A stretch of DNA of 36,572 nucleotides, taken from positions 1 to 36,572 of the forward strand of contig JAESPR010000053.1 in assembly GCA_016765685.1 (NCBI GenBank), given 5' to 3'. The translations under genes were made by a program, and so were the position numbers. Within the stretch, counting starts at the first letter, position 1. The number at the start of each line of letters is the position of its first letter. The stretch comes from Colwellia sp. (GTDB lineage Bacteria > Pseudomonadota > Gammaproteobacteria > Enterobacterales > Alteromonadaceae). This document shows positions 312 to 29,767 of the stretch, piece by piece. The notes under the pieces are model-generated. The model had not been told where the DNA came from. It saw only the letters and a list, made by a program, of their open reading frames with translations, and made no database searches.

Positions 312-1730
312 ATGCCAGTTATTCCCGTTATACTCTCCGGCGGTTCAGGGACTCGTTTGTGGCCACTTTCTCGAAAACAATACCCCAAACAATTCTTCAA
401 CTTGACTAATGGTGAATACACCATGTTGCAAGAAACGATTCTAAGAACGCAGCATTTACAAAAGCCTATTGTTGTTTGTAATGAAGACCATCGGTTTATG
501 GTTGCAGAGCAATGTCACGCTATAAATATAAAACCATTAGCCATAATGCTTGAACCTATTGGGCGAAATACCGCACCTGCAATAGCATTAGCGGCTATAG
601 AAGCACAAAAACAAGATCCAGACGCCATTATTGCTGTTTTTCCCGCTGATCATGTTATTGAAAATCAGCAAGCCTTTGAACAATCGTTAAGTGTAGCCAT
701 TGAAGCTGCCAAGCAAGACAAATTAGTCACCTTTGGTATAGTTGCGGATAAACCTGAAACCGGTTACGGTTACATAAAAGCGGTAGATGAAGCTTCAACC
801 ATAAAAAATTCAAATTATTTCAACGTAGAAAAATTTGTAGAAAAACCAGATTTGCAAACTGCACAACAATACATAGAATCTGGCGACTATTATTGGAACA
901 GCGGAATGTTTGTTTTCAAAGCCTCTGTTTATCTAAAAGCGCTAGAACAAGTAAGTCCTGAAAGTATTAAATACTGTAAAGAAGCAATAAATAAAGCTCA
1001 GAGCGATTTAGACTTTATTCGAATAGAAAAAGAAAGCTTTGAACGATGTCCAGATGACTCAATTGACTATGCCGTGATGGAAAATGCAAGTAATGTTGTT
1101 GTTGTACCAATGGATGCGCAATGGAGTGATTTAGGCAGTTGGACTTCACTTTGGGATATTGCAAACAAGGATCAAAACCAAAATTCACATGTAGGTGATG
1201 TTATTGCCATCGATAGCAAGAATACATTGGTACATAGCCAAAATAGACTTGTTGCAACCATTGGCTTAGAAGACATTATAATTGTAGATACTTCTGATGC
1301 ATTGCTTGTGGCGCATAAAAGCAAAATACAAGATGTGAAAACGATAGTTAACGAACTTAAAATTAAAAATCGTAGCGAACACCTTCAACACAAAGAAGTG
1401 CATCGTCCTTGGGGGAAATATGACTCTGTGGACAAAGGCGCACGTTATCAAGTAAAACGGATTACCGTAAAACCTGGAGCATCCCTTTCGCTACAAATGC
1501 ACCACCACAGAGCAGAGCATTGGATTGTGGTATCAGGCACAGCCACTGTACAAATAGGCGAAGAAGAGCAATTGTTAACGGAAAATCAGTCTGTGTATAT
1601 TCCTATTGGTGAAACTCATCGGTTGACTAATCCGGGGATATTACCGTTAGAGCTTATAGAGGTGCAAAGTGGTAGTTATCTTGGTGAAGATGATATTGTT
1701 CGTTTTGAAGATGTATATAAAAGAGTTTAA
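312..1730 (+). CDS. manC: Mannose-1-phosphate guanylyltransferase / mannose-6-phosphate isomerase
   Basis: Bifunctional cytoplasmic enzyme (472 aa, the usual length) making GDP-mannose from mannose-1-phosphate and GTP, often also isomerising fructose-6-phosphate to mannose-6-phosphate. The N-terminal nucleotidyltransferase signature [12 protein letters not shown] lies at residues 10-21, and the FVEKPD motif at about 175-180. The C-terminal cupin (isomerase) half has the metal-site stretch [10 protein letters not shown] at 395-404. The start is ATG with AGGA 12 bases upstream. It is the first gene of a tight operon: wecB begins 5 bases after its stop. GDP-mannose would feed gmd at 12081. The paralogue name cpsB/algA/wbpW would serve equally. 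Confidence 0.95.
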
Positions 1731-1735
1731 AAATT

Positions 1736-2863
1736 ATGATTAATGTATTGCTTGTTTTTGGCACAAGACCAGAAGCTATAAAAATGTGCCCTTTGGTAAA
1801 TGAACTTAAAAACGATAACTCTTTTAATGTTAAAGTTTGTGTGACAGCTCAGCATAGAGAAATGCTAGATCAAGTGTTAAGTCTTTTTGATATAAAGCCA
1901 GATTATGATTTAAACGTAATGAAGCATGGTCAATCTTTGTCAGAGTTAACGTCAAATATCCTAAATGGTTTAGAGTCTGTATTAGAGGACGCTTGTCCTG
2001 ACATAGTACTTGTCCATGGTGATACCTCAACTACATTTTCATCTAGCCTAGCGGCATTCTACAAACAAATACCCGTGGGGCATGTAGAGGCTGGATTAAG
2101 GACGGGTAATTTGTACTCTCCTTGGCCTGAAGAGGCTAATAGAAGGTTAACGGGAGCATTAACTACTTTACACTTTGCTCCTACCGATGTATCAAAACAA
2201 AATTTATTAAAAGAAAATATTGACCCTAAAAGCATTGTTACAACGGGTAACACAGTTATTGATGCCTTATTAACCGTTGTTGATAACCTTAAGAACAATA
2301 AAGAATTAAGGGCTAAGTTTAATCAACAATTTCCCTTTATAAAAGATGAGAGAAAGTTCATCTTAGTAACAGGGCATAGAAGGGAAAGTTTTGGTCAAGG
2401 TTTTGAAAATATTTGCCAAGCGTTAGCTAACATTGCTAGTGATAGACCTGATATTGACATTGTTTATCCTGTACATTTGAATCCTCAAGTTCAAGAGCCA
2501 GTAAATAGATTGTTGAGTGGTCTTGATAATATCTACTTGATTGAGCCCCAAGACTATTTACCTTTTGTTTATCTAATGTATAAGTCTCATATTATCATTA
2601 CAGATTCTGGTGGTATTCAAGAAGAAGCACCATCGTTAGGGAAACCTGTATTAGTGATGCGTGATACTACTGAACGTCCTGAGGCCGTAGAAGCAGGAAC
2701 AGTTAAATTAGTAGGCACAAGCGCAAGTAAAATAGCTTTCGAAGCAATGAACTTACTAACTGATGATGCGTATTACCAAAGTATGAGTTTTTCCCATAAC
2801 CCTTACGGTGATGGCGATGCCTGTAAAAAGATAGCAAAGGCTATAAAAGAGTGGAAGAAATAA
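1736..2863 (+). CDS. wecB: UDP-N-acetylglucosamine 2-epimerase (non-hydrolysing)
   Basis: Converts UDP-GlcNAc to UDP-ManNAc in the cytoplasm. The protein has 375 aa, the normal size. GTRPEAIKM lies at the N-terminus; HVEAGLRTG (116-124) is followed by the [10 protein letters not shown] stretch; TGHRRESFG has its histidine at about 214; and DSGGIQEE at 290-297 is the nucleotide-binding loop of this GT-B-like epimerase fold. Sequence style matches enterobacterial WecB along its length, so I prefer WecB over WbpI, the related UDP-GlcNAc3NAcA epimerase. Its stop codon overlaps the start of wecC, which supports joint production of UDP-ManNAcA. Confidence 0.95.
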
Positions 2864-4131
2864 TGGGTTTTGAAACAATTTCAATTATAGGTTTAGGTTA
2901 TATTGGCTTACCTACTGCAGCAGTTTTTGCCTCTCGGAAAGTTAAAGTGATAGGTGTTGATGTAAGTCAGCATGTAGTTGATACCATTAATAAAGGTAAA
3001 ATACATATCGTTGAACCAGACCTTGATATTGCTGTACATGTAGCAGTAACAGAAGGTTATTTAAAAGCGACAACCATGCCTGAAAAAGCAGATGCGTTTA
3101 TCATCGCAGTGCCAACACCTTTTTATACTGAGGAAGATAGTTCAAACCTTAAACCTGATCTAAGTTACATAAAATCTGCTTGTGAAGCGATAGCGCCAGT
3201 GTTAGAAAAAGGTAACTTGATTATATTAGAATCTACTTCTCCCGTAGGCGCGACAGAGAAAATGGTAAAATGGTTATCTGAATACCGTCAAGACTTAACT
3301 TTTCCTTTATCTGGTGATGAGGCCGATGGAAGTGAGGCTGATATAAATATTGCACATTGCCCTGAGAGGGTTCTGCCCGGGCACATTATGCGAGAGCTAA
3401 TTGAAAATGATCGTATCATAGGCGGTATAACGAGAAAATGCGCGCAACGCAGTGCTGAGTTATACAAAGCTTTTGTAAAAGGTGAATGTATTATCACTAC
3501 AGCTCGCACTGCAGAAATGGCGAAACTGACTGAAAACTCATTTAGAGACGTTAATATTGCTTTTGCTAATGAGCTATCGATGATTTGTGAAAAGCTTGAT
3601 ATTAATGTTTGGGAACTTATTAAACTTTCTAACAGGCATCCAAGAGTAAATATACTTCAACCAGGTTGTGGCGTTGGTGGGCACTGTATAGCCGTTGACC
3701 CATGGTTTATTGTAGATTCAGCTCCTGAGCAAGCAAAAATTGTTCGTACTGCTCGTGAAGTAAATGACTACAAACCACAATGGGTTGTTGAACAAATTAT
3801 TAAAAAGTGTAATAAACAAAACACCAAGAAAGTCGTTTGTATGGGTATTGCTTTTAAACCGGATATTGACGATTTAAGAGAAAGCCCAGCTTTAGCGATT
3901 ACCGAAAAGTTAGCAAAATTAGGTTACGAAGTAACTGTAGTCGAACCTAATATCACAGAGCTGCCAGAAAGGTTGCAAACATATAATATTAGACTTGAAA
4001 AACTAACAGGGTTAACTGGTTTAGATGTGAGTGTTCAAGCACTTTTGGTTGCACATTCGCCATTTAAACAGTTTGTCGATTTAAGTAAGTCAACTGAGTT
4101 GTTAGATTTTTGTGGTTTAAGAGAAGAATAG
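2863..4131 (+). CDS. wecC: UDP-N-acetyl-D-mannosamine dehydrogenase
   Basis: NAD-dependent four-electron oxidation of UDP-ManNAc to UDP-ManNAcA. The N-terminal Rossmann motif GLGYIGLPTAA is at residues 10-20. The family motifs ESTSPVG and KLTENSFRDVNIAFANELS and the catalytic cysteine loop GVGGHCIAVDPWF (Cys at about 275) are all present. I chose ATG at 2863, whose A is the last base of the wecB stop (TAATG); it gives 422 aa and an N-terminus matching WecC. A GTG at 2851 would add four residues but lies inside wecB. The GGAAGAA just upstream serves as ribosome-binding site. The gene is coupled to wecB and followed after 3 bases by the giant fusion gene. Confidence 0.95.
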   Translation: MGFETISIIGLGYIGLPTAAVFASRKVKVIGVDVSQHVVDTINKGKIHIVEPDLDIAVHVAVTEGYLKATTMPEKADAFIIAVPTPFYTEEDSSNLKPDLSYIKSACEAIAPVLEKGNLIILESTSPVGATEKMVKWLSEYRQDLTFPLSGDEADGSEADINIAHCPERVLPGHIMRELIENDRIIGGITRKCAQRSAELYKAFVKGECIITTARTAEMAKLTENSFRDVNIAFANELSMICEKLDINVWELIKLSNRHPRVNILQPGCGVGGHCIAVDPWFIVDSAPEQAKIVRTAREVNDYKPQWVVEQIIKKCNKQNTKKVVCMGIAFKPDIDDLRESPALAITEKLAKLGYEVTVVEPNITELPERLQTYNIRLEKLTGLTGLDVSVQALLVAHSPFKQFVDLSKSTELLDFCGLREE

Positions 4132-4134
4132 AAC

Positions 4135-7100
4135 ATGTCTACCATAAGCGATCATATATTTAAGATTAAAGTTGACCAAGGTGAATATTCAATGTATTTA
4201 CCTAAAGCTAATGTTGATTATATTCAAAAACATATAGCTGAAACAGGACAGCCTTACGAGTTGGATATGTTGCAAGATATGGCTAGTAGATTGAGCCCAG
4301 GTGATGTTGTGCTTGATATAGGGGCTAATGTCGGTAACCACACTCTTTATTTGGCTGCTTTGGCTAAAGTTAAAGTTTATGCTTTTGAACCAAATGCACT
4401 CCTTGTTAAAGCGATAAGGAAAAGTGCGGCATTATCTTTAGTTGAAAAGAATGTAATTATTTATTCTATTGGGCTAGGGAGCGAAGAATCTTCAGGGCAT
4501 TTTAAAGAGTTAATTAGTGAAAATATTGGAGCTCAGAGTATTGAGGTCGGCGAGGGTAAACTGCGTATACAGCCCTTAGATTCTATTAGGTTTTCAGAAT
4601 CTATATCAATGATGAAAGTTGATGTTGAAGGTATGGAGCTTGAAGTATTAAGAGGGGCTATTGCAACTATTCAACATCATCAACCTATTATGTATGTTGA
4701 AGCGTTAAATATTGACGAGTTCTTCTTGGTAGAAGATTTTTTAGCTAAGCTAGGTTATATTGTTTTAGATACCTTTAATGCTTCACCAACTCACTTGTTT
4801 ATACATATAGACAAATTAGATAATAATATTTTGGAAAAATACAATGCTAAAAAAATTATTGCGTCAAGTTATGTATTACCTCAAGAACTGAAAGAAAGCA
4901 AGGAACACTTACATCAAGCTAACTTAAAGTATCGGAATATAAATGAGCAAGTTATTCAATTAAAAAAACAATTAGCTAATAAAAATATAGCTAATGACAT
5001 TGATTTATCAAAAGAGCTTGTTAGCAAACTAACCTCATTACAAAATAGTGCAGAGAATAAAGAGCAGCAACTAGCCGTTGCATTATCTGAAATTTCGTCT
5101 TTAAGTGATAAAGGCAATGAAAGTTACGATGTAGTTAAAAGCTTATTAGATGGCAGAGAAGAGCTTGTTAGCAAACTAACTTCATTACAAAATAGTGCAG
5201 AGAATAAAGAACAGCAACTAGCCGTTGCATTATCTGAAATTTCGTCTTTAAGTGATAAAGGCAATGAAAGTTACGATGTAGTTAAAAGCTTATTAGATGG
5301 CAGAGAAGAGCTTGTTAGTAAACTAACCTCATTACAAAATAGTGTAGAGAATAAAGAACAGCAACTAACAACCGCTTTAGTTAATATGGCCATTTTAGTT
5401 AAGCAGGCTAAAGAGCAAAAAAACTCTAATGACAAAACTCAACGCATTATGTTGCAGTATCTTGATTTAATTGGAAAAAATAAAAAAACAGAGCTTTTTT
5501 TTATTGAATTTAATAATAGAGATAAAGAATTGAAAGGAAAAGTTGCAGATATGGCGGTCTCTAAAAAAGAACTTGAAGTTAATGTTCAGAATTTACAAAT
5601 TGAACTTAATGAAATAAAAGAAAATTTAATTATAGCTAAACAAAAAGAAAGTAAAGCTGAATTAGCAAAAATAAAAGCACTGAAACAAATTGAAGACCTG
5701 CGAGCAAGTGTTATGTTTCAACTTGGTTATGTATTAGTTAATGCTTGTTTGTCATTTAAAGGTTTTATTTCTTTACCTCTTAAATTAATGAGTATATTAA
5801 AGTTAGGTATTATAACTTTTTTTGCAGATAGGAAGTCTTTAAGAAAGAAAAATAAGCAAGCCGCTAAAATATTGCTTGAGAAACCTACATCGGTATTACA
5901 TGCTGAAGCACCTAAAAAGTTAGAGGCTTTTAATTTAGCTGAAGGTTTATTAAAAAACTCTAGATCAAAACTAAAAGTCGCTTGTATTATGGACGAATTT
6001 ACTTATGGTAGTTACGAACCAACATGTAATTTACAACAGTTAACTCCCGATAACTGGCTAGAAGAACTCGAACTATTCCAACCTGAACTTTTGTTTATTG
6101 AATCGGCATGGAGAGGTAAAGATGAATTGTGGGGCAGTAAAGTTGGCCATAATTCTGCTGAGTTACAAAGCATTATTACTTGGTGTAAAACTAAAATAAT
6201 CCCAACGTTGTTTTGGAATAAAGAAGATCCGGTTCATTATCAAACTTTTTTAACTGTTGCTAAACAGTTTGATCATGTTTTTACCACAGATTTAGATTGT
6301 GTTTCTCGTTATAAGGCAGCACTAAAACATAATAATGTTTATTTCTTACCCTTTGCTTGCCAGCCTCAAGTACATAACCCGATAGAAAAATTTGAACGTA
6401 AAGATGCAATAAGCTTTGCGGGTGCTTATTATGTAAAATACCCTGATCGTACTAAAGATTTAGAAAGTTTGGTTTCATCTTTACCCAAAATAAAGGCACT
6501 AGAAATTTTTGATAGAAATTTTGGTAAATCTGATCCTAATTACATGTTTCCGCCGCAATATACTCCTTACATTGTAGGAACCTTACCTTTTGATAAAATA
6601 GACATAGCCTATAAAGGCTATAAATATGCAATAAACCTGAATTCTATCAAGCAGTCTCAAACCATGTTTGCTCGGCGTGTATATGAGTTGCTAGCGAGTA
6701 ATACCTTAACCATTAGTAATTACTCCAAAGGTATCAGGTTAATGTTTGGTGATTTAGTTGCTTGCTCAGACAGTGGAGAGGCACTAAGTCAAACCCTAGC
6801 TGAATGGGGGGAGAACTCCAATAATGTTGATAAACTACGTTTGGCAGGGTTAAGGAAAGTATTACAAGAGCATACGTATCTAGCACGCCTTAATTATATT
6901 GAAGAAAAAATATTCGACAAAAAAAACACAGATAACAACGTAAGTGTTGCAGTGGTTTGTTTTGTTAAAACAACTGAACAAGCAAAAACAATTATTAGTC
7001 AATTTAATAATCAAACATGGCAGGCTAAACAGCTTGTCTTGGTTGTTAAAAAATCTACAGCCAATTTTGATTCATTTGAAACTAAAAACATAAAATTTTG

Positions 7101-10100
7101 CAAATATAGAGAATGCTCAAGTAAAACGCTCAGTGAACTTTTTGAGAATAATAATTATTTGGCAACTTTTAATTATGATGATTTTTACGGTGAAAATTAT
7201 TTAACAGATCTCATGTTGAATTTTTCATACCTGCATGTAGATGTCGTTGGCAAAGCTAGTTGCTATAATTATAATAAAAGTAAGTCTGTTAACTTGGTTG
7301 ATAACGGTGAAAGCTACACTGTAGTAAATACACTCACTCCTGTTAAAAGTGTAATCTATATTGAATCTTTTTCAGAGTTAATGTTAAAGCAGTGGTACAA
7401 AAAACTGACAACAAGGTTTGATGATAAGTATGTACAATTTTCGGTTGACAGATTTAATTATTGTCAGAATGGAATGGCTAATATATCACTGATAAGTGAC
7501 ATAGTTGGAGATATAAAAAATATCAACCCAGGTGCGAGTTTAACTGATTTACAAAGCATTGCTGAGAATGTAGCTCCGATGATACATAATGCGGTTGAAA
7601 CTATTTTAGAATATAAGTTATTAAAGCCTATTTTTGAAAAAGCGAAAGCAAGTAAAATAAAATTAACTTTTGAAAATTATCATATCCATTTATCTTCAAC
7701 CTTAGATAATGGAAAACATGAGTATATCTATGGTAGCAAACCATTAGGTATCAATTTGTTTAACCCTGATATAAAAGATGGTGAACAGAAAATTCAATTA
7801 TTTATTGAGGGAACGCCGGGTCTTTCTGTTAGTTTTGTATTAATCTATTTGGATCAACAGCAGCAGCGCTTGTGTCATGATATTATACTAACAAATCAAA
7901 ATAAAATATTAACACTCCCGAATGCAGTTGCATATGTAAAAGTTGGTTTTAGGGTTTTGTCAGCAGGTAGTTGTGAAATTAAAGCTATCGTACTGGGACA
8001 GCGTAATTTATTACCAAGTAAAATAATTCCTTGCTCTGAGACACTACTTATTACCAATCATTACCCATCATATCAAGACTTATATAAAAATGGCTTTGTG
8101 CATACTAGGGTAAAAGCTTATAAAGCTGAAAATGAAATTGTAGATATATTCAGATTTTGGAAAGATACAAACTTAACATATCATGAATTTGATGGTGTTG
8201 ATGTTGCTACGGGTGGAGCAGATGTTTTAAGAAGAAAATTATCAGATGGTAATTATAGCTCAGTATTAGTACATTTTTTAGATCAAAATATGTGGGATGT
8301 GCTTAAGGAATTACCACAGGATATAAGAATTAATGTTTGGGTACATGGTGCTGAAATTCATCCTTGGTATCGTAGGAAATTCAATATTGAGACACAGGAA
8401 CAAGAAGAGATTGCAAAAACAAACAGTGAACTGAGAATGGCTTTTTGGCACAGTGTTTTGGATCATATGCCTAAAAATTTAAAATTGATTTTCGTTTCTA
8501 AAGCATTTTCACAAGAAGTATTTGAAGACTTAGGCTATAAATTACCAAAAGAACAATATAAGATCATTCATAACCCTATAGATACAGATACTTTTAAGTA
8601 TATTGAAAAGCCGGAGAGCCAAAGAAAAAAAATACTATCAATCAGACCATTTGCGACAAAACAATATGCGAATGATTTGTCTGTTGCAGCCATTTTAAAG
8701 TTAAGTAAAACTCCTATTTTCGAAAGTTTAGAGTTTAGAATAATTGGTGATGGAAAGTTATTTGATGAAACACTAGAGCCACTTAGAAAGTTCAGTAACG
8801 TCATTATAGAAAGAAAATTTGTTACACACGCTGAAATCGCTGCTTTACACCAAGAATATGGTTTATTCCTATGTCCTTCACGCTGGGACAGTCAAGGGGT
8901 ATCTAGAGATGAAGCTATGTCTTCCGGACTTATTCCTATTACAACAGCTGTTGCCGCTATTCCTGAGTTTGCAGATGATACCTGTGCTATCTTAGCGCCC
9001 CCAGAAGATGCAAAAGCCTTGGCTGAAGGTATACTTAAGTTGATAGAGGAACCAGGTTTATTTTCTAAAATGTCTCAGTGTGCGTCTGAAGTGGTAAAAG
9101 CAACCAGAGACAAAAAATTTATTGCTAATGAAGAAATAAATACATTCATAACTGATAACTGTATTCCCGTGTATTCGACCGTAAATGTATTTGAAACGTT
9201 ATCAAAAAAACTGACTTTGCCTGGAATATCTGAAAGCGATCGTTTCGATATTTATAAATCGATGTCAGGAATATTGTACGAACTTAAAAGGTATGAAGAA
9301 GCTTATATTTGTATCGATATTTGCCTTCAAATAGAGCCTGACAATATGGTTTTAAAAGAAATGCTCACTAAGTTGAAAAGTTCAATCGGTAACGGGGGAG
9401 AAGGTATTTTAGATGAACATAAAAACTTTCTGCGAAGAAAAGATAAATACCTGGACTATCCAGAAGTTGTACAGATTGAAACCTTAGCCGCTTGTAATGC
9501 CGGTTGCTCTTTTTGCCCTTATCCTACAATGGAAAGGCAAGGAGAAAAAATGTCGATGGAGCTGTTCGATAAGATCATTGCAGATCTTAAGCGTCAAATA
9601 CCCAAGGACCATAGTTTTTCAATAGGACTGAATCATATTAATGAGCCGTTGGCTGATTCTAGATGGGCAACATTTGTGTCAAAAATAGCTTCAGAGCTAC
9701 CTAATGCAAACATTTCTATTATCACGAATGGGTATTTACTGCATGAAAAAAACATCAACAGATTGTTGGCAAGTTCAAATGTCAGTTCTATTCAAGTATC
9801 GCTGAACGAAATTGATGAAGTGTTACATGAAGAAAAAATGAATATGAATGGTAAGTTTGAACGCATAGTTACAAACTTGGATATGCTACATACTATTATT
9901 GAAAATAGTGACTCTACCATGCCTGTTTTTATCCGGCGTGTTGGTGATTATACCCAAAAGGATGAGGAGTTTATTACTTACTGCTCAAAACGTTGGCCTG
10001 AATTCAATGCTGCATCAAGGGGGGTAAAAGACTTTTTAGGACAAGTTAATCTTGATAATTTGGAATCAAATGTAGCAAAAAATTTAAAAAATGCGAATAT

Positions 10101-10362
10101 TCCAGTTGTTGGATGCTCACAATGGTATCATCTGGTCATATCGGCTTCTGGCAAGGTTGCTACGTGTTGCTTTGACGGTAAAGTGAACTGGCCTATTGGT
10201 GATACTAATCAGTCGAATGTCCTTGATATATATAATTCCCAAGCTTACTTAAAATTGAGGGGAAGCGCTAAAACAAGGTTAGAAGGCAATAGCCCCTGCA
10301 GTTCTTGTAGTATTCATTGGGGGGCAGGTGAGAAAAATGCAGTATATAATTATAAACCGTAG
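4135..10362 (+). CDS. Giant fusion: FkbM methyltransferase, glycosyltransferases and radical SAM domain
   Basis: A single open frame of 2075 codons with several recognisable modules. (1) FkbM-type SAM methyltransferase, residues ~45-225: VVLDIGANVGNH ~57-68, FEPN 84-87, KVDVEGMELEVLRG ~161-174. (2) Coiled coil ~250-530 with a 49-residue tandem repeat. (3) Hydrophobic/amphipathic stretch ~530-565. (4) CgeB/DUF3880-like glycosyltransferase ~613-926. (5) GT2-like, apparently degenerate ~936-1120, with FNYDDFYGENYL. (6) Beta-rich unknown ~1180-1292. (7) GT4-like GT-B ~1304-1665, with a DEAMSSG loop. (8) TPR-like ~1699-1749. (9) Radical SAM, C1787-X3-C1791-X2-C1794, with C-terminal cysteines 1994, 2011/2012, 2055 and 2058 as in SPASM/twitch domains. 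There is no signal peptide. The start is ATG after GAGAAGAA, 3 bases after wecC. It probably builds and modifies part of the glycan at the inner membrane; specificities are unknown. Confidence 0.9.
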   Translation: MSTISDHIFKIKVDQGEYSMYLPKANVDYIQKHIAETGQPYELDMLQDMASRLSPGDVVLDIGANVGNHTLYLAALAKVKVYAFEPNALLVKAIRKSAALSLVEKNVIIYSIGLGSEESSGHFKELISENIGAQSIEVGEGKLRIQPLDSIRFSESISMMKVDVEGMELEVLRGAIATIQHHQPIMYVEALNIDEFFLVEDFLAKLGYIVLDTFNASPTHLFIHIDKLDNNILEKYNAKKIIASSYVLPQELKESKEHLHQANLKYRNINEQVIQLKKQLANKNIANDIDLSKELVSKLTSLQNSAENKEQQLAVALSEISSLSDKGNESYDVVKSLLDGREELVSKLTSLQNSAENKEQQLAVALSEISSLSDKGNESYDVVKSLLDGREELVSKLTSLQNSVENKEQQLTTALVNMAILVKQAKEQKNSNDKTQRIMLQYLDLIGKNKKTELFFIEFNNRDKELKGKVADMAVSKKELEVNVQNLQIELNEIKENLIIAKQKESKAELAKIKALKQIEDLRASVMFQLGYVLVNACLSFKGFISLPLKLMSILKLGIITFFADRKSLRKKNKQAAKILLEKPTSVLHAEAPKKLEAFNLAEGLLKNSRSKLKVACIMDEFTYGSYEPTCNLQQLTPDNWLEELELFQPELLFIESAWRGKDELWGSKVGHNSAELQSIITWCKTKIIPTLFWNKEDPVHYQTFLTVAKQFDHVFTTDLDCVSRYKAALKHNNVYFLPFACQPQVHNPIEKFERKDAISFAGAYYVKYPDRTKDLESLVSSLPKIKALEIFDRNFGKSDPNYMFPPQYTPYIVGTLPFDKIDIAYKGYKYAINLNSIKQSQTMFARRVYELLASNTLTISNYSKGIRLMFGDLVACSDSGEALSQTLAEWGENSNNVDKLRLAGLRKVLQEHTYLARLNYIEEKIFDKKNTDNNVSVAVVCFVKTTEQAKTIISQFNNQTWQAKQLVLVVKKSTANFDSFETKNIKFCKYRECSSKTLSELFENNNYLATFNYDDFYGENYLTDLMLNFSYLHVDVVGKASCYNYNKSKSVNLVDNGESYTVVNTLTPVKSVIYIESFSELMLKQWYKKLTTRFDDKYVQFSVDRFNYCQNGMANISLISDIVGDIKNINPGASLTDLQSIAENVAPMIHNAVETILEYKLLKPIFEKAKASKIKLTFENYHIHLSSTLDNGKHEYIYGSKPLGINLFNPDIKDGEQKIQLFIEGTPGLSVSFVLIYLDQQQQRLCHDIILTNQNKILTLPNAVAYVKVGFRVLSAGSCEIKAIVLGQRNLLPSKIIPCSETLLITNHYPSYQDLYKNGFVHTRVKAYKAENEIVDIFRFWKDTNLTYHEFDGVDVATGGADVLRRKLSDGNYSSVLVHFLDQNMWDVLKELPQDIRINVWVHGAEIHPWYRRKFNIETQEQEEIAKTNSELRMAFWHSVLDHMPKNLKLIFVSKAFSQEVFEDLGYKLPKEQYKIIHNPIDTDTFKYIEKPESQRKKILSIRPFATKQYANDLSVAAILKLSKTPIFESLEFRIIGDGKLFDETLEPLRKFSNVIIERKFVTHAEIAALHQEYGLFLCPSRWDSQGVSRDEAMSSGLIPITTAVAAIPEFADDTCAILAPPEDAKALAEGILKLIEEPGLFSKMSQCASEVVKATRDKKFIANEEINTFITDNCIPVYSTVNVFETLSKKLTLPGISESDRFDIYKSMSGILYELKRYEEAYICIDICLQIEPDNMVLKEMLTKLKSSIGNGGEGILDEHKNFLRRKDKYLDYPEVVQIETLAACNAGCSFCPYPTMERQGEKMSMELFDKIIADLKRQIPKDHSFSIGLNHINEPLADSRWATFVSKIASELPNANISIITNGYLLHEKNINRLLASSNVSSIQVSLNEIDEVLHEEKMNMNGKFERIVTNLDMLHTIIENSDSTMPVFIRRVGDYTQKDEEFITYCSKRWPEFNAASRGVKDFLGQVNLDNLESNVAKNLKNANIPVVGCSQWYHLVISASGKVATCCFDGKVNWPIGDTNQSNVLDIYNSQAYLKLRGSAKTRLEGNSPCSSCSIHWGAGEKNAVYNYKP
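5014..5367 (+). repeat. 147-bp in-frame tandem repeat (2.4 copies) in the coiled coil
   Basis: Unit 1 is 5014-5160, unit 2 is 5161-5307, and a partial third copy covers 5308 to about 5367. Units 1 and 2 differ at only two bases (acc/act and gag/gaa), both synonymous. The third copy stays recognisable for about 20 codons before diverging. Each unit encodes 49 residues beginning ELVSKLTSLQNSAENKEQQL. The length is a multiple of 3 (and 49 of 7), so gain or loss of copies keeps both the frame and the heptad register. Confidence 0.95.
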
Positions 10363-12080: not shown

Positions 12081-13115
12081 TTGAAAAAAGCATTTATCAC
12101 CGGCGTAACTGGGCAAGACGGTTCTTATTTAGCCGAGTTCCTTCTAGAAAAAAATTATGAAGTTCATGCTATTGTACGTCGATCTTCTGTATTTAATACT
12201 GCGAGGATTGAAAATATATTGGGGCATCCTAATTTTACTACCTACCATGGAGACTTAACTGATTCTAGTAATTTACATACTCTATTAGCGAAAATAAGGC
12301 CAGATGAAATATATAATTTAGGTGCTCAATCGCATGTTGCTGTTTCTTTCGAAGTGCCTGAGTACACCGCCGAGGTGGATGCTGTAGGTACGCTAAGATT
12401 GTTAGATGCAATTAAAGATTTAGGTATTAAACCAAAATTTTATCAAGCATCTACTTCCGAATTGTTTGGTGGTTTACCTGATACCGCACCACAAAGTGAA
12501 ACTACGCCATTTCATCCTAAGTCTCCATATGGAGTGGCTAAAATTTATTCATATTGGATAACTATAAACTACAGAGAGTCTTACGACTTATTTGCTTGTA
12601 ATGGAATATTATTTAATCACGAATCTCCGCGTCGTGGGGAAACGTTTGTTACTAAAAAAATTACAAAAGCTGTTGCCAATATTTTTAAAGGTAAACAAAA
12701 AGTACTTAAATTAGGCAACATGGACGCAAAACGAGATTGGGGTTATGCAAAAGACTATGTAGAAATGATGTGGTTGATGTTGCAACAAGATACACCTCAA
12801 GATTACGTTATTGCAACAGGGAAAACGTACACCGTTAGATATTTTGTCGAAATGGCCTTTGCAGAAGTAAATATAGACATTATATGGGAAGGCCAAGGCG
12901 AAAACGAAGTCGGTATAAATAAAGCAACAGGTGAAACTGTTGTACAAATCGACCCCAAATACTATCGACCTGCAGAGGTGGAGTTATTGTGGGGAGATGC
13001 GTCTAAAGCAGAAAAAGAATTAGGCTGGAAAGCAAAAACCACTTTAAAAGAACTCGTTAAAATTATGGTTGAGTATGATCTTAAATATGATACATACGGT
13101 GGAGACAACACATGA
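12081..13115 (+). CDS. gmd: GDP-mannose 4,6-dehydratase
   Basis: Short-chain dehydrogenase/reductase family enzyme that turns GDP-mannose into GDP-4-keto-6-deoxy-mannose. 344 aa, family length. [17 protein letters not shown] is the NADP-binding loop. The catalytic residues T125-S126-E127 and Y150-G-V-A-K154 are present, as are the family stretches [14 protein letters not shown] and [17 protein letters not shown]. The start is TTG at 12081, supported by AGAGG at 12071-12075, which overlaps the stop of the upstream gene. The stop overlaps the next gene by four bases (ATGA). Its product is the branch point for the reductase at 13112 (fucose-type) and the aminotransferase at 15856 (perosamine-type). 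Confidence 0.95.
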
Positions 13116-14029
13116 TATTAGTTACCGGTGCAACGGGTTTTTTAGGGAAACGCGTATGTAAGTTGTTAGATCAACAAGGTTTACCTTACACAAAAACTTC
13201 TTTAAGTTTAGGGACTGATTTACGAGATAAAGAACAAACCTTTACCCTGTTTAAGTCTGTAAAACCCGATTTTGTGTTAAACTGTGCTGCGTTTGTTGGA
13301 GGCATTCAATTTGGGGCGAAACACCCCGTTGAGCTGTTTCAAAATAACCTGCAAATAACATTGAATCTACTGGCAGCAGCCAAAGAATTCGATGTAAAGC
13401 GTATGGTTAATCCAATATCAAATTGTGCTTACCCCGGTAAAGCTACTTTGTTCAAGGAAGATGAGTTTTGGGATGGGCCTCTGCATGATTCCGTGTTGGT
13501 TTATGGTTTTGTCCGTAAAGCTTTTTGGGTGGGATCATGGGCTTATGCTGAGCAATATGATCTTGACGTGATGAATATCATTTTATCAAATATGTACGGC
13601 CCGGAAGATCACTTCGAAGAAGAGCGTTCCCATGCACTAGGGGCTTTAATAATGAAATTTGTTAAAGCTAAAAGAAATAATGAACCCAGTGTAAGTGTAT
13701 GGGGTAGTGGCACACCCGTTAGAGAGTGGTTACATGTAGATGATGGTGCACAAGCTATGGTTCGCTCATTAGATGTTGATCGCACTATAGAACCAATTAA
13801 TATAGGTGTTGCAGAGGGAATTTCAATTATTGAAATGGCCCGACAAATAAAAGCTATTGTGGGATACGAAGGAGAGATTGTTTTAGATCCGACTAAACCT
13901 GATGGCGCCCCTTATAAAACTGTTGATGGTAGTAAAGGTGAAAAACTGCTTGGCTGGAAACCACAAATAGCATTTGACGACGGTGTTAAAAGCACAATTG
14001 AATGGTATTTAAAGAATATTACTGAATGA
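13112..14029 (+). CDS. GDP-L-fucose synthase-like SDR with Arg at the catalytic Lys position
   Basis: 305 aa, related to Fcl/WcaG (GDP-4-keto-6-deoxymannose 3,5-epimerase-reductase). Seen: [10 protein letters not shown] at the N-terminus, FVGGIQ, a serine-cysteine pair S103-N-C105 matching the Fcl SSC, the SHALGAL histidine region, [16 protein letters not shown], and [11 protein letters not shown] near the end. The catalytic tyrosine aligns with Y131 (YGFVRK). The lysine normally four residues later is arginine (R135), with a lysine at 136. So either the enzyme tolerates Arg or belongs to a subfamily with a different reaction. It is translationally coupled to gmd through ATGA and followed by a small cupin gene. 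Substrate GDP-4-keto-6-deoxyhexose is likely; the exact product is uncertain. Confidence 0.75.
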
Positions 14030-14044
14030 TAATTAGGAATAGAG

Positions 14045-14452
14045 ATGTCTGTTATTGAAATTAAAGAAAATGATGTTGTACTAGCAAAACATGTACCAGC
14101 AGCTGTCGCTTGGGCTGGCGGATTAAATTTTTTCTCGGCTGATGAAGAATATGTTCAGGTTGGTACCTGGGGTTATGATTCCGGAAAAGAGCTATTAGCT
14201 CATTCACATAACGAAGTATCAAGAGAAGTGTTATGGACACAAGAAGTGTTATATATTCGCAAAGGAAAAATACTTGCTGAAATATATAATGCTAAGGATG
14301 AAAAAGTGGCTGAATTTGAAGCTACCGAAGGTGACCTAGTTATTTTATTACACGGTGGTCATGGTTATCATATTCTTGAAGATGGCACTCAAGTTTTGGA
14401 AGTTAAAAATGGCCCTTATGTTGGCGCCAATGCAGATAGAAGAAGGTTATAG
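14045..14452 (+). CDS. Small cupin protein, possibly a sugar-nucleotide isomerase/epimerase
   Basis: 135 aa, single-domain beta-barrel of the cupin type. A histidine pair LAHSHNE (~residues 55-61) and a later HGGHGYH stretch sit where cupin metal or substrate ligands usually lie. AGGAATAGAG precedes the ATG. It lies between an Fcl-like reductase and a hydroxyacyl-CoA dehydrogenase in the same operon, one base before the next gene. Sugar-locus cupins of this size include RmlC-like epimerases and FdtA-like isomerases, so a role in shaping the GDP-4-keto-6-deoxyhexose is plausible. No specific function can be read from the sequence. Confidence 0.75.
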   Translation: MSVIEIKENDVVLAKHVPAAVAWAGGLNFFSADEEYVQVGTWGYDSGKELLAHSHNEVSREVLWTQEVLYIRKGKILAEIYNAKDEKVAEFEATEGDLVILLHGGHGYHILEDGTQVLEVKNGPYVGANADRRRL

Positions 14453-14453
14453 T

Positions 14454-15293
14454 ATGGACAGGGTTGCGATTGTTGGTAATGGAGTTATGGCGCAAGGGAT
14501 AGCCAGCGTTTGTATAATTCATGGCTATGAAGTCTCCATTATTTCGAGATCTGAATTAAATATCCAAAGTTCGAGAAATAACATCCTTCGAATGTCAAAA
14601 AAGGTTGTAGCTAAAAATAAGATGGATGTCTGCTCTGATGATTTGGTAAATAAATTATCATTTTCATGTTCATTTGAAGATATTAGTAATTGTGGCATTA
14701 TCATCGAGTCTGTCACAGAAGATTTAATGGTAAAACAAAAGGTATTGAAAAGCATTGAGCAATATCGATGTGTAGACTCTATTGTTGCAACTAATACGTC
14801 TTCAATTTCCATTACTGAATTAGCGAGTTACAGTAAAACCCCCGAATCATTTATAGGTTTACATTTTTTTAATCCTGCGCCAGTCATGGCGTTAACTGAA
14901 ATAGTAAAGGGAATGTTGACCAGTGATGAATGTATTGATAAGACTTTTAAATTTGCAACTTCTCTTGAAAAGTCTCCTGTTATAGTTGAAGATTCACCTG
15001 GTTTTGTTGTTAATCGTTTACTTATTCCGATGATAAACGAGGCAATCAATGCTCTTTCGGAAGGGGTGGCTTCAGCTTTAGATATAGACTCTGCAATGAA
15101 ACTTGGTGCCAATCATCCCATAGGACCATTATCTTTAGCTGATTTAATTGGAAATGATGTATGTCTGTCTATTTTAGATTCATTACATCAAGAGACAGGT
15201 GATCAAAAGTATCGGGCATCTCCATTACTCAGAAAAATGGTAAGAGCAAACGTGTTAGGTCGTAAAACTAAAAAAGGTTTTTTTAATTACTAG
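14454..15293 (+). CDS. 3-hydroxyacyl-CoA (3-hydroxybutyryl-CoA) dehydrogenase
   Basis: 279 aa, the full length of the short HBDH/PaaH-type family, which interconverts acetoacetyl-CoA and (S)-3-hydroxybutyryl-CoA with NAD(P)H. The N-terminal Rossmann loop is GNGVMAQG (8-15). ATNTSSIS is present, the catalytic histidine is H137 in GLHFFNPAPVM, then TEIVKG, DSPGFVVNRLL and NHPIGPLSLADLIGNDV. I chose ATG 14454: AGAAGG lies 7 bases upstream and the protein then begins directly at the Rossmann fold. An upstream ATG at 14355 would only read out of frame through the cupin gene. In a sugar operon just before an acyltransferase and an aminotransferase, it likely supplies a hydroxyacyl-CoA for N-acylation of an amino sugar. 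Confidence 0.85.
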   Translation: MDRVAIVGNGVMAQGIASVCIIHGYEVSIISRSELNIQSSRNNILRMSKKVVAKNKMDVCSDDLVNKLSFSCSFEDISNCGIIIESVTEDLMVKQKVLKSIEQYRCVDSIVATNTSSISITELASYSKTPESFIGLHFFNPAPVMALTEIVKGMLTSDECIDKTFKFATSLEKSPVIVEDSPGFVVNRLLIPMINEAINALSEGVASALDIDSAMKLGANHPIGPLSLADLIGNDVCLSILDSLHQETGDQKYRASPLLRKMVRANVLGRKTKKGFFNY

Positions 15294-15305
15294 AGGAAAG
15301 TTAAT

Positions 15306-15854
15306 ATGTCCAATGAATATGACTATGATCAATTGAAAAGCTATGGTGACGATGTATTCATTAGTCAAAATGTAGAAATAAGAAGACCTAACCTTGTTAC
15401 TGTAGGTAGCCATTTAGCTATAGATACTGGTTTTTATTGTACTGTAACGGCTGAAATAGGTGATTATGTACATATTGCACCATATATTACTGTTATCGGC
15501 GGAGCAAAAGGCCTTTTTAAAATGCATCATTTTTCAACAATTGCTGCAGGCTCAAGAGTCATTTGTGGTAGTGATGAACATTTAGGTGAGGGACTAGTTG
15601 GGCCAACGATTCCTAAACCGTATAAAGATAATATTAAATATGCGCCGGTTATTCTTGAAAGGTATGCAAATGTGGGAACCAATGTTGTTATTATGCCGGG
15701 CGTAACTATTGCTGAAGGTTGTGTGATAGGTTCAAACTCAACGGTTACTAAATCAACAAAACCTTGGACTATCTATGTTGGTAATCCAGCTAGGGCAATA
15801 AAAACACGTAAGAAAGAAAACATTCTAGATTACGCAAAAAAATTAGGTTATTAA
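15306..15854 (+). CDS. Left-handed beta-helix acyltransferase (hexapeptide repeat)
   Basis: 182 aa with hexapeptide repeats through most of its length (for example VTVGSHLAIDTGFYCTV and VGTNVVIMPGVTIAEGCVIG), ending in the typical TIYVGNPARAIKTR cap of CoA-dependent sugar O- or N-acyltransferases. AGAGGAAAG precedes the ATG. Its stop is one base from the aminotransferase gene. Context suggests transfer of an acyl group, perhaps 3-hydroxybutyryl from the product of the preceding gene, to the 4-amino group made by the next enzyme. An O-acetyltransferase role cannot be excluded. Confidence 0.8.
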   Translation: MSNEYDYDQLKSYGDDVFISQNVEIRRPNLVTVGSHLAIDTGFYCTVTAEIGDYVHIAPYITVIGGAKGLFKMHHFSTIAAGSRVICGSDEHLGEGLVGPTIPKPYKDNIKYAPVILERYANVGTNVVIMPGVTIAEGCVIGSNSTVTKSTKPWTIYVGNPARAIKTRKKENILDYAKKLGY

Positions 15855-15855
15855 A

Positions 15856-16950
15856 ATGTCAGATTTTATTATGCAAATGCGCCCTTTGTTTGGCGAAGAA
15901 GAAAAAAAAGCTATCTGTGAATATATGGATGAAGATGGTTTTATAACTGAGTTCAAACGAACTGAACAATTTGAAAATATGCTTGCCGCACATACAGGTG
16001 CAAAACATTGTGTAGTGGTTAATAATGGTACGGTAAGTTTAACCTTAGCAGCAATGTCTGTAGGTATAGAAGCCGGTGACGAAGTAATAGTACCTAACTT
16101 TACCATGATCGCTACGCCTAACTCGATAAAAATGTTTGGTGCTGTGCCGGTATTTGTTGATGTTGAGGTAGAAACACTGTGTCTTGATATTAAACAGGTA
16201 GAAGCAGCAATTACCGACAAAACCAAAGCCATCATGCTGGTAACCGCTAACGGACGTTACCCTAAGTCTGGCATTCAAGCTTTTGAAGCATTAGCTAAAA
16301 AGTATAATTTAAAGTTGATTGAAGATTCAGCGCAATCACTAGGTTCATATTATCCTGATGGCAGGCATATTGGTACAGTGGGTGATGTCGGTAGCTTTTC
16401 ATTTTCGGCACCTAAAATTATTTCTACCGGTCAAGGTGGCTGTATTATCACTAATTGTGATAATACAGCTGAACGCTTACGTCGTCTTAAAGATTTCGGC
16501 CGTTCTGGTGGGGGTAATGATATTCATGATCAAATTGGTTTCAACTTTAAGTTTACAGAATTGCAAGCATGTATTGGCATAGAGCAAATGAAAAAACTTG
16601 AATGGCGTATTGAACGTAAAAAAGAAATTTTAAAATTATACCAATTAAATTTAACTGAAGTTTCTCAAGTTAAATTCTTTGCGCAAGACCTCTCCTGTAC
16701 TACACCATGGTTTATTGATGTATTAGTAGAAAGAAGAGAAGCACTACAAGCATATTTAAAAGGGGAGGCAATTGGTACTAGAGTGATGTACCCGCCGATA
16801 AATGAACAACTTGCTTACCAACTGGCAGGTAGTTTTCCTATCGCAAAATTAGTAGGACAGAATGGGCTTTGGTTACCATCAGCAGTTCAACTTACAAATG
16901 AAGATATAAATCGTATCTGTAACGCCATTATTAAATTTTACAAACCTTAA
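15856..16950 (+). CDS. DegT/DnrJ/EryC1-family sugar aminotransferase (perosamine synthase-like)
   Basis: 364 aa PLP enzyme. The internal-aldimine lysine is K187 in FSFSAPKIISTGQGG. LIEDSAQSLGSYYPDGRHIGTVGDVGSF carries the PLP-contacting aspartate, and NNGTVSLTLAA lies at the PLP-phosphate site. RMYP-like residues (TRVMYPPINEQLAY) close the C-terminal half. With gmd in the same operon, a GDP-4-keto-6-deoxymannose 4-aminotransferase (perosamine synthase) is the simplest reading, with L-glutamate as donor. A related keto-sugar aminotransferase is also possible. It is the last gene before a hairpin at 16957-16977. Confidence 0.85.
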   Translation: MSDFIMQMRPLFGEEEKKAICEYMDEDGFITEFKRTEQFENMLAAHTGAKHCVVVNNGTVSLTLAAMSVGIEAGDEVIVPNFTMIATPNSIKMFGAVPVFVDVEVETLCLDIKQVEAAITDKTKAIMLVTANGRYPKSGIQAFEALAKKYNLKLIEDSAQSLGSYYPDGRHIGTVGDVGSFSFSAPKIISTGQGGCIITNCDNTAERLRRLKDFGRSGGGNDIHDQIGFNFKFTELQACIGIEQMKKLEWRIERKKEILKLYQLNLTEVSQVKFFAQDLSCTTPWFIDVLVERREALQAYLKGEAIGTRVMYPPINEQLAYQLAGSFPIAKLVGQNGLWLPSAVQLTNEDINRICNAIIKFYKP

Positions 16951-16986: not shown

Positions 16987-18696
16987 ATGAATTTAAATAA
17001 AGCTTCTTCCGATTTTTTTGGGTGGAATATATCTGTCTTCAAAAAATTATGGCGCCATACAGCCTCTCAGGCAGTTTTAAGTGTTCTATTTTTTGGCTTT
17101 AGTCAGCTATTTTTGATCATAGCCATGTTCTTACCTTTAAAGGTTATTATTTTACTTTCAACTAACACGGTTCCTGCATATCTATCAGCTTTCATGACAA
17201 CTGAAAATAAGCTTATAATAGTTTATGGTCTTGTTGGTTTAGCTTTTATTTTATATCTATTATTCGTTTTGTTTGAATGGGCATTTAAAAAATATGCCTA
17301 TAAAGGTGCAGAGTTACTGCTTAATAAATCGAATAAAATTCAGTTTTTTGATAATCAAAAGTTTATTGCCAGTGAACTATATTTAAGATATTGCAAAATG
17401 ATTGCTTCCTTTGGCATCATTTTTATAGTATTTGGCTTTGGCCTTTTTATTAATGTAGAAGCTTTTATTAGTTTGATTTTATTAGTAATATTTCAGTACG
17501 CCTCAATATTAATTTTATACAAATATGAAAGTAATATTTCTACATGGATAACAGATAACTTAAATGTATTCTTGAATATTTTATCGTCGATAAACTTTTT
17601 AATGGTCTTTTTATTTTTAGTTTTGCAGTATCGGATAAACACCAATTTTAGTATATTCATAGCATTGATAAGTATTATTCTAACTCGCCAAGCAATGCAA
17701 CGATTACATGGAACCTTGCTAGATGCAAATTATTTAGTCTTAAATCAAATTAAATTTAATGCTCTATTCTATAGTAATATACAGTACTTATTAGGAAGTA
17801 ATCGTCAAAATGATGAGTTTATTGATTTTATTTCTCATAACAGGCGTAATTCTTGGATCACTGAAGTAATAAAGGTTGTTAATGGTAGTTCAATTTTTTT
17901 AGATGATATAGTTGCAGATTGGAGAGACTCAGGCACTGCAAACATAGGTTGTTTTGATGTTAGGGTTGGAGACGAAAATAGTACTTGTTATACGATCAAA
18001 ATATTCGCGCCAAATCGTATCGCATCTTGCAAACATGAACGTTTGTTGTTTGTTGAAATGGGTAATACATTAAAGGTTTTACCAACATTTATTGGTGCTA
18101 CTTCGTTTGATGACTACGAAGTGCAAGTATACTCGTTAATAAGCCAGAAAATGATTGATGTACCTCAATGGAAAATCACCTTAAATGAACTTTTTCTTAC
18201 TATGTGGTGCACCCCGCCAACGGAAAGATTAATTGATATTTACACTAGGTCTAGACCTTTACTTCACCAGAGACTTAAATTAGATGTTTTAGATTTATTA
18301 ATTGTTGCTTGCATTGACGAAAAAGAAGAAAAGATGGTAAAGGTTATATTAAATAAACTCGATAAAATAATTGCTCAACTAGTAAAAGCACCTTTATTTA
18401 TATTTAATCCTGAAATGGTCAGAGCAGCAGTATTTGTTGAGGGTGATAAAAAATATATCAATAGTTGGTCAAGATGGACATTAGAGCCGGTTGGTGCTGG
18501 TTTGCCAGTACCCAATGATGACCAAGCTATAGAATTAGCTTCAGAAATTATCAAGCATCATTCAGTTCCGTTGACTGTTGACGAGTTATTGTATAACGCC
18601 TATATTTATGAGTTTGAAAAATGCTTACAACGGCAAAATTTGAGAGAAGCCATGACTTTTGTTTCAAGAATTATAGGATTTATTAATGAGAAATAA
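16987..18696 (+). CDS. Orphan membrane protein: ABC-exporter-like helices plus unknown soluble domain
   Basis: 569 aa, family not recognised. Six hydrophobic segments lie in the first half, at roughly residues 28-55, 75-96, 136-157, 158-180, 195-220 and 222-237. With PLKVIILL near the first and RQAMQRLHGTLLDANYLVLNQIKFNAL after the sixth, they resemble the transmembrane half of an ABC exporter. There is no Walker A, LSGGQ or Walker B, so no ATPase domain follows. Residues ~280-569 are soluble, with motifs such as RLLFVEMGN and INSWSRWTLEPVGAGLP. This part is reminiscent of a degenerate phosphotransferase/kinase-like fold, but the usual catalytic HxDxxxxN is not visible. It is the last plus-strand gene before the inverted block. 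Transport, assembly or regulation of glycan synthesis are possible; function unknown. Confidence 0.75.
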   Translation: MNLNKASSDFFGWNISVFKKLWRHTASQAVLSVLFFGFSQLFLIIAMFLPLKVIILLSTNTVPAYLSAFMTTENKLIIVYGLVGLAFILYLLFVLFEWAFKKYAYKGAELLLNKSNKIQFFDNQKFIASELYLRYCKMIASFGIIFIVFGFGLFINVEAFISLILLVIFQYASILILYKYESNISTWITDNLNVFLNILSSINFLMVFLFLVLQYRINTNFSIFIALISIILTRQAMQRLHGTLLDANYLVLNQIKFNALFYSNIQYLLGSNRQNDEFIDFISHNRRNSWITEVIKVVNGSSIFLDDIVADWRDSGTANIGCFDVRVGDENSTCYTIKIFAPNRIASCKHERLLFVEMGNTLKVLPTFIGATSFDDYEVQVYSLISQKMIDVPQWKITLNELFLTMWCTPPTERLIDIYTRSRPLLHQRLKLDVLDLLIVACIDEKEEKMVKVILNKLDKIIAQLVKAPLFIFNPEMVRAAVFVEGDKKYINSWSRWTLEPVGAGLPVPNDDQAIELASEIIKHHSVPLTVDELLYNAYIYEFEKCLQRQNLREAMTFVSRIIGFINEK

Positions 18697-25131: not shown

Positions 25132-25180
25132 CAATTAGTAACTTATGTAAGCTTACTACTTGCCATCTAATAGGTTTTTT

Positions 25181-29698: not shown

Positions 29699-29767
29699 TA
29701 TAACTCATATTATTTTTACGCTTAATTGGTTCTAACTGTGGAAGTAGATGATTCTACAAAAAATCTT

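Follow-up and report, generated by a model that had tools for sequence, protein, structure and literature searches.

The contig JAESPR010000053.1 of a Colwellia sp. assembly (GCA_016765685.1), analysed over its whole length of 36,572 nucleotides and hereafter called the window, encodes a 2075-residue protein, P0001, in which an FkbM-family methyltransferase, a long coiled coil, a core of glycosyltransferase modules and a radical S-adenosylmethionine (radical SAM) enzyme follow one another in one frame. Our preferred reading, held tentatively and at somewhat less than even confidence, is that P0001 is a one-polypeptide builder of a surface polysaccharide containing N-acetylmannosaminuronic acid (ManNAcA), with a cap, a ruler and a radical module that may oxidise or invert sugars at the place of chain assembly. 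An initial annotation made from the letters of the window had proposed one scaffolded protein that builds a glycan and carries a radical SAM enzyme at its end, and the modules of P0001 support that proposal. What is new is the radical SAM tail; the remaining framework is a variant of a known glycan machine. The parts of the protein are as follows.

4135..10362, + strand: fusion protein P0001, 2075 residues (open frame; single copy in its genome)
4135..4854, + strand: FkbM-family methyltransferase, residues 1-240, with the SAM motif DIGANVGN at 61 (PF05050, E 1.1e-15; TIGR01444, E 4.6e-19)
4867..5694, + strand: coiled coil, residues 245-520 (heptad periodicity, z 6.3; phase)
5012..5367, + strand: 147-bp (49-residue, seven-heptad) tandem repeat, 2.4 copies (Tandem Repeats Finder; alignment)
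5695..5934, + strand: conserved hydrophobic junction, residues 521-600 (hydrophobicity windows; relatives by eye)
5935..6939, + strand: CgeB-like GT-B glycosyltransferase, residues 601-935 (PF13524; invariant motifs)
6940..7650, + strand: probable GT-A-like segment, residues 936-1172 (AlphaFold secondary structure; conserved columns)
7651..8022, + strand: beta-rich segment, residues 1173-1296 (model: ten strands, one short helix)
8023..9168, + strand: GT4 glycosyltransferase, residues 1297-1678 (PF13692/PF00534; Foldseek)
9169..9399, + strand: TPR-like helical linker, residues 1679-1755 (weak TPR matches; model helices)
9400..10359, + strand: radical SAM/Twitch domain, residues 1756-2075 (PF04055, PF13186; BtrN profile; Foldseek)

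The window is the entire contig of a metagenome-assembled genome (MAG) of 3.02 Mb in 128 contigs, 76.85% complete, in which P0001 is present once. As the initial annotation had stated, the gene is a single open frame of 2075 codons running from ATG to TAG without interruption, and each of the FkbM, CgeB-like, GT4 and radical SAM assignments is backed by a Pfam match above the curated cut-off: FkbM at 61-209 (E 1.1e-15), Glyco_trans_1_2 of the CgeB type at 817-923, GT4 at 1491-1648 and Radical_SAM at 1783-1946, with SPASM at 1994-2058 as well.

The long coiled coil named in the initial annotation is equally borne out. Residues 245-520 have a 3.5-residue hydrophobic period with a power of 33.5 against 10.9 in shuffles (z = 6.3), while two control stretches of the same protein, FkbM and CgeB, give z of -0.7 and 0.8. 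The phase stays steady at 125-159 degrees in windows starting at 287-399 and drifts before and after, the power of the period also dropping in windows after residue 399. Altogether the coil comprises about 300 residues, the distance from FkbM to the junction being 303. Copies one and two of the tandem repeat within it differ at only 4 of 147 bases when aligned, so the duplication looks recent, and these near-identical 49-residue units in heptad phase support the preferred reading; further copies could be hidden by short-read assembly. As to the junction behind the coil, of the ten 19-residue windows of P0001 that are most hydrophobic, nine start at 531-547, and residues 521-600 are a possible membrane-binding helix. 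A hydrophobic stretch of this kind recurs in relatives by eye.

In the glycosyltransferase core, the CgeB motifs WNKEDP, FTTD and others are invariant in 11 aligned sequences (P0001 and ten relatives), whose mean column identity is 51%, and strong conservation of the motifs of CgeB and GT4 makes it probable that both modules are active. The top Foldseek matches of the core model are GT4-type enzymes. The segment at 936-1172 had been called GT2-like. In its favour, D-x-Y and D-x-x-x-Y-C columns are conserved in eight sequences, the Asp-x-Tyr being invariant, and these columns together with the alpha/beta order of the AlphaFold model make a GT-A fold probable. On the other side, the segment matches no Pfam or NCBIfam family in P0001 and no Pfam family in seven relatives scanned whole, a profile of these eight sequences finds no PDB match below E 0.4, and the segment is less conserved than the CgeB and GT4 modules. 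The segment that follows is beta-rich in the model, as had been described, and is read as a sandwich that possibly binds sugar. For the TPR-like linker the model likewise gives helices, although the Pfam TPR matches at 1679-1755 lie below cut-off.

Regarding the tail, the radical cysteines form CX3CX2C at 1787/1791/1794, and behind the barrel there are cysteines only at 1994, 2011, 2012, 2055 and 2058, which confirms both the positions and the terminal set of the initial annotation. Four auxiliary cysteines (1994, 2011, 2055 and 2058) align with BtrN in a profile alignment, and the three radical and four auxiliary cysteines are invariant in 21 of 21 clade members. A tail profile of 14 sequences (P0001 and 13 relatives) finds BtrN at E 3.5e-38 and then MoaA at 4e-21, the single tail sequence matching BtrN at 2.8e-7. 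The model built from 33 sequences has a mean predicted local distance difference test score (pLDDT) of 76 and a predicted template modelling (TM) score of 0.69; its pLDDT is mostly 89-98 in the barrel, apart from one loop at 74, and lower in the Twitch part, the linker and the ends. Its first Foldseek match is BtrN (4m7t; E 2.1e-11, TM score by target 0.70), followed by chains of SuiB (a sactipeptide enzyme), DesII, BlsE and anSME. Pfam, model and Foldseek agree that the last 300 residues have the radical SAM fold, with both CX3CX2C and the partial barrel present.

A SPASM domain, as the initial annotation had it, is not what the tail carries. SPASM is a seven-cysteine motif with two auxiliary clusters, according to PMC6231123. 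The tail has four auxiliary cysteines for one cluster and its structure is nearest to the BtrN Twitch; with too few cysteines, the SPASM reading was rejected, and sequence comparison identifies the auxiliary domain as a BtrN-type Twitch. BtrN, the 2-deoxy-scyllo-inosamine dehydrogenase of butirosin synthesis, shares CX3CX2C, barrel and four-cysteine Twitch with the tail, at 17% identity in the Foldseek alignment, but belongs to another pathway, whereas the tail is fused to glycosyltransferases. The reaction of BtrN is a two-electron alcohol oxidation on an aminocyclitol, as given in PMC9012708. A possible hydrogen donor, Cys1950, was considered as a sign of an epimerase; it is found in 17 of the 21 clade members and is Val in four, and so is not decisive.

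The framework ahead of the tail resembles proteins described before. PMC11231755 reports a capping enzyme, a coiled-coil ruler and glycosyltransferase modules in one protein; there Klebsiella O7 ORF6 consists of a methyltransferase, a coil and two glycosyltransferase modules. For the E. coli O9 group and for O12, it treats the role of the coil as a ruler as established. WbdD is described in PMC3482155, including an O8 version that only methylates. WbdD (E. coli O8/O9a), WbbB (K. pneumoniae O12), O7 ORF6 and P0001 share an N-terminal enzyme, a long coil, a hydrophobic junction and glycosyltransferase modules, although in O8/O9a the modules lie in the separate WbdA and P0001 has its own. The class feature, a long coil between an N-terminal modifying enzyme and glycosyltransferase modules, is present in P0001, and, as with the WbdD/WbbB/O7 types, many relatives of its core lie with ATP-binding cassette (ABC) exporters. 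P0001 differs from them in its FkbM-type methyltransferase, in a CgeB/GT4 core tied to wecBC and in the radical SAM tail; it differs also in that an ABC exporter was found neither in its window nor in the MAG, itself 77% complete. Since this genome yielded no such exporter, P0001 is not filed in the ABC class: by analogy it may work like the cap-ruler-polymerases of ABC-exported O antigens, with no membership claimed. The coil had initially been proposed as a spacer; the coil itself stands, but the analogy with WbdD, WbbB and O7 makes it better read as a length ruler than as a mere spacer. Among the open-licence papers listed, judged by titles and abstract openings, none describes such a protein. 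The main text of an E. coli capsule catalogue (PMC13171606) has one ManNAcA abbreviation and no wecB, CgeB, FkbM or radical SAM, and PMC11666461 contains none of six terms sought there.

The donor side of the preferred reading lies immediately upstream, where wecC stops 3 bases before the fusion gene.

312..1730, + strand: manC, mannose-1-phosphate guanylyltransferase/mannose-6-phosphate isomerase (TIGR01479, above cut-off)
1736..2863, + strand: wecB, UDP-GlcNAc 2-epimerase (TIGR00236, above cut-off)
2851..4131, + strand: wecC, UDP-ManNAc dehydrogenase (NF008286, above cut-off)

The wecB and wecC products would make the UDP-ManNAcA donor, and the CgeB, probable GT-A and GT4 modules, held at the membrane by the hydrophobic junction, would add the repeat sugars there. 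The N-terminal FkbM would cap or decorate the chain by O-methylation, and the coil would set the distance of FkbM and so measure the chain, as in WbdD and WbbB; gain or loss of 49-residue, seven-heptad units would change the length of this ruler with its register kept. The TPR-like linker would keep the radical SAM/Twitch module near the polymerase, where the tail would alter a sugar radically, either on the donor or on a freshly added residue, most likely by a BtrN-like two-electron oxidation and otherwise by epimerisation. This differs from the initial annotation, in which the radical enzyme modifies the glycan terminus; that step is not supported, and the radical SAM module is placed on the side of the polymerase.

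The core, residues 600-1670, recurs at about 37-50% identity in 15 loci, from Aliarcobacter, a Pseudomonadales MAG, Nitratireductor, Helicobacter, two Paenibacillus, Aminobacter, Acinetobacter, Caballeronia, two Advenella, two Leisingera and two further genomes. Three more loci hold part of it: that of Sulfurovum, which lies at a contig end, that of Paracoccus, as far as residue 1396, and that of a Citrobacter plasmid, which has no GT4 and reaches residue 1118. In all, 18 other loci thus have a whole or partial core. It is an already known module set, seldom found. A scan of 84,980 species gave 11 of the loci, and five were taken up from plasmid records. At 1e-60, a search of 369 genomes of the class met the core in the MAG and in one other genome; at 1e-25, a search of 398 from the phylum met it in five, including the MAG and three partial matches. 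In a set of 61 genomes made up of the MAG with 60 relatives (36 from its genus), 23 match P0001, the MAG included, and in the 22 others each match is one module or a piece of one. The genome searches were sampled, with few candidates scored per genome, and the locus searches used six short peptides; an identical fusion elsewhere could have escaped them.

The context of these loci, searched by BLAST with window proteins at 1e-8 within the retrieved DNA of each locus, links the core with ManNAcA genes. In 17 of the 18 there is wecC (L004 is the exception) and in 14 there is wecB (the exceptions being L004, L006, L007 and L009); a KpsT/Wzt-like ABC ATPase occurs in 12, ten of which also have a permease match, three of these ten being sources of the queries. 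By NCBIfam, the dehydrogenases of L012, L067 and L081 score above the UDP-ManNAc dehydrogenase cut-off and that of Paenibacillus L006 just below, while the dehydrogenase of L082, a locus with a stand-alone GT4 relative, is nearest TviB and below cut-off. Two plasmids from enterobacteria carry wecB-wecC together with a CgeB-like protein that lacks a GT4 domain. In our reading the core would act on N-acetyl-hexosaminuronic acids, and of its modules the CgeB one is the leading candidate for transferring ManNAcA. The family suggests a rule, in which CgeB/GT4 and wecB-wecC are conserved and caps, coils, GT4s or a radical enzyme are placed at the ends.

FkbM, coil and core are joined in one protein in 4 of the 18 relatives (L004, L005 and L008 by BLAST; L081 also by Pfam), and this fusion is therefore not unique. 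The four, from Nitratireductor (L004), Aminobacter (L008), Helicobacter (L005) and G338 (L081), have the domain order of residues 1-1670 at 40-45% identity in the core and stop soon after GT4 without radical SAM, whereas P0001 continues; the L081 fusion adjoins Wzm/Wzt-like genes and wecC. In L002 a separate FkbM frame lies upstream, and the other N-termini, where visible, are coil-like or different and lack FkbM. From FkbM to the junction, the coils of the five fusions, P0001 included, measure 303, 230, 200, 135 and 117 residues. The coil period has z of 6.4 in L008, 5.0 in L081, 2.9 in L004, 2.7 in L002 and 2.0 in L005; the only repeat seen in L081 is of 21 bp in two copies. At the C-terminus, both Advenella proteins and that of Caballeronia have a second GT4 (two Pfam stretches each), and TPR with radical SAM is added only in P0001 among the loci compared. 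With the radical SAM profile, the 468 frames taken from 19 comparison loci gave no match, nor did a BLAST search of 20 such loci with the tail, in agreement with the expectation that a radical SAM enzyme tethered to glycosyltransferases is unusual.

Some further features of these loci were noted. The Citrobacter freundii plasmid p1C73 (L068), typed as conjugative, carries a capsule-type wecB-wecC-CgeB locus that includes genes of an ABC exporter; a resolvase annotated as Tn4401-family lies nearby. Behind the core gene, DUF6270 proteins recur in L002, L003 and L068, and by eye from the first residues in L005 and L006; that of L003 is fused to heparinase II/III-like domains, and heparinase-like proteins also occur in L010, L064 and L066. 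A KpsC/S-like gene is present in 4 of 20 comparison loci (L009, L011 by Pfam, L012 and L068).

To our knowledge, the substrates of SPASM/Twitch radical SAM proteins in glycan loci are mostly unknown. With a copy joined to a defined glycosyltransferase core and donor genes adjacent, the likely substrate is narrowed to a few sugars and the question becomes testable. Several SPASM/Twitch radical SAM proteins were also seen in glycan loci of one Brachyspira plasmid.

The nearest sequences to the tail are a bacterial stand-alone protein, L054 (35-38% identity), and, at 30-36%, 18 proteins carried by viruses. All of these group with the tail and one more viral row at 100/95 in a tree of 61 rows, the bootstrap being not fully settled; the tree took 16 of 17 virus loci (L166 dropped for a stop) plus L117 and L120, and from another set of 77 loci 33 were tried, L099 was dropped for a stop and 32 were aligned. 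At 1e-10 the tail matches 27 of 398 genomes of the phylum, among them the MAG; G154 reaches 38% (E 4.7e-54) and the other 25 lie at 21-37%, E 3e-19 or weaker. The virus-borne radical SAM/Twitch proteins share the motifs RWPxF and NEP with the tail but are stand-alone, with 267-279 residues. The tail may have been acquired from a source of this kind. A viral origin of the whole protein was rejected: one viral scan with P0001 returned 4 stretches, none of them holding a relative, and among 50,697 phage records the 15 matches listed, of 18 in all, span only residues 26-222. As for the viral neighbourhoods, PHROGs context, obtained for L160 and L175 only, puts the L160 gene between major head and head-closure proteins and that of L175 beside a terminase. 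At L160 1400-7629 an unknown protein (phrog_1574), a methyltransferase (Pfam) and the radical SAM/Twitch protein form a head-region cassette, which frames of L117 and L120 resemble by first residues, judged by eye; such a cassette could modify the virion or its glycans.

A more specific version of the preferred reading, which we consider rather unlikely, would have the tail oxidise or invert a sugar carbon at the polymerising site while at its other end the protein gauges the chain by a ruler adjustable through its repeats and adds a methyl cap, the tail deriving perhaps from a virus-type enzyme modifying virion or host glycans.

Several observations weigh against the preferred reading. Coil periodicity is weak in L064 (z 0.5) and L003 (z 0.1), and the Leisingera coil repeat has 237 bp or 79 residues, which is not whole heptads. 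Fused FkbM is lacking in 14 of the 18 relatives and a KpsT/Wzt-like ATPase in the retrieved DNA of 6, and the weak ATPase matches may be unspecific, L082 from an unrelated setting having 26%, the same as L004. No WbdD chain is among the 37 PDB matches of P0001 at E up to 0.1, so that this search showed no kinship in sequence to WbdD. The Foldseek alignment of the tail to BtrN has a root-mean-square deviation of 6.6 Å, and function is hard to predict from such similarity in this group, as PMC6231123 states. Finally, the export genes of this genome point elsewhere: beyond the polysaccharide ABC exporter missing from the window and not found in the MAG, the MAG has no match to the KpsC/S family and none to one KpsM query (a search without positive control), and its sole ABC2_membrane match has an unrelated neighbourhood, judged by eye. 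A Kdo (3-deoxy-D-manno-oct-2-ulosonic acid)-linker pathway was rejected for this genome, as no KpsC/S family match occurs in the MAG. Three Poly_export genes are present there, in neighbourhoods that look different by eye. In the window lie instead the following genes, beside which a chain ruler has no obvious role.

25160-26515: Wzx-type flippase
29726-31006: O-antigen ligase/Wzy-like protein

These two genes, with the ABC exporter not found in the MAG, speak for P0001 as a repeat-unit assembler in a Wzx/Wzy locus, which is a possible explanation of somewhat lower probability than ours: a short lipid-linked unit would be made, FkbM would methylate one of its sugars, the coil would only oligomerise or tether, and the radical SAM enzyme would alter one unit sugar. 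However, an ABC ATPase accompanies 12 of the 18 core relatives, the coil, with its roughly 300 residues and its young repeat, seems in our judgement to exceed the needs of a tether, and the window carries eight further glycosyltransferase genes, which could serve Wzx/Wzy separately.

It is unlikely, though to be considered, that the tail acts on a non-glycan target (a peptide, a nucleotide or a small molecule), being fused only for localisation, or is inactive. Its nearest relatives are stand-alone and mostly virus-borne, one of them between phage head genes, and its structural matches also include enzymes acting on peptides, SuiB for one; peptides are the targets of many SPASM/Twitch enzymes (PMC9012708). 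Yet the cluster cysteines are all kept in the tail, and the structural matches include BtrN, DesII and BlsE, acting on sugars or sugar-like rings (DesII and BlsE by NCBIfam names).

An assembly error at the junction to the radical SAM domain is highly improbable. In its favour, the contig belongs to a MAG, the tail is in none of the 20 comparison loci, and third-position GC content is about 32% across TPR and radical SAM against 19.6-26.3% across the first seven pieces and 20.2-29.4% in ten neighbours, slightly above the highest of them. Against it, the junction runs in frame through the TPR-like linker with no stop, and the tail occurs once in the MAG.

Elsewhere in the window, gmd, a sugar-nucleotide reductase, a 3-hydroxybutyryl-CoA dehydrogenase-like protein, a hexapeptide acyltransferase and a DegT aminotransferase stand in a row at 12081-16950, which looks like a pathway to a GDP-linked amino-deoxy sugar with an N-3-hydroxybutyryl group. 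At 16987-18696 lies P0003, of 569 residues, a membrane protein by eye without Pfam or NCBIfam match; of 274 genomes searched in the class, 9 have a relative (one of the 9 is the MAG), and another occurs at 23% identity in the ManNAcA locus L063. Following the fusion gene, P0002 (10420-12072; 550 residues) has no Pfam or NCBIfam match and one chance PDB match, and by eye it has a beta-rich start and a possible fucosyltransferase-like end.

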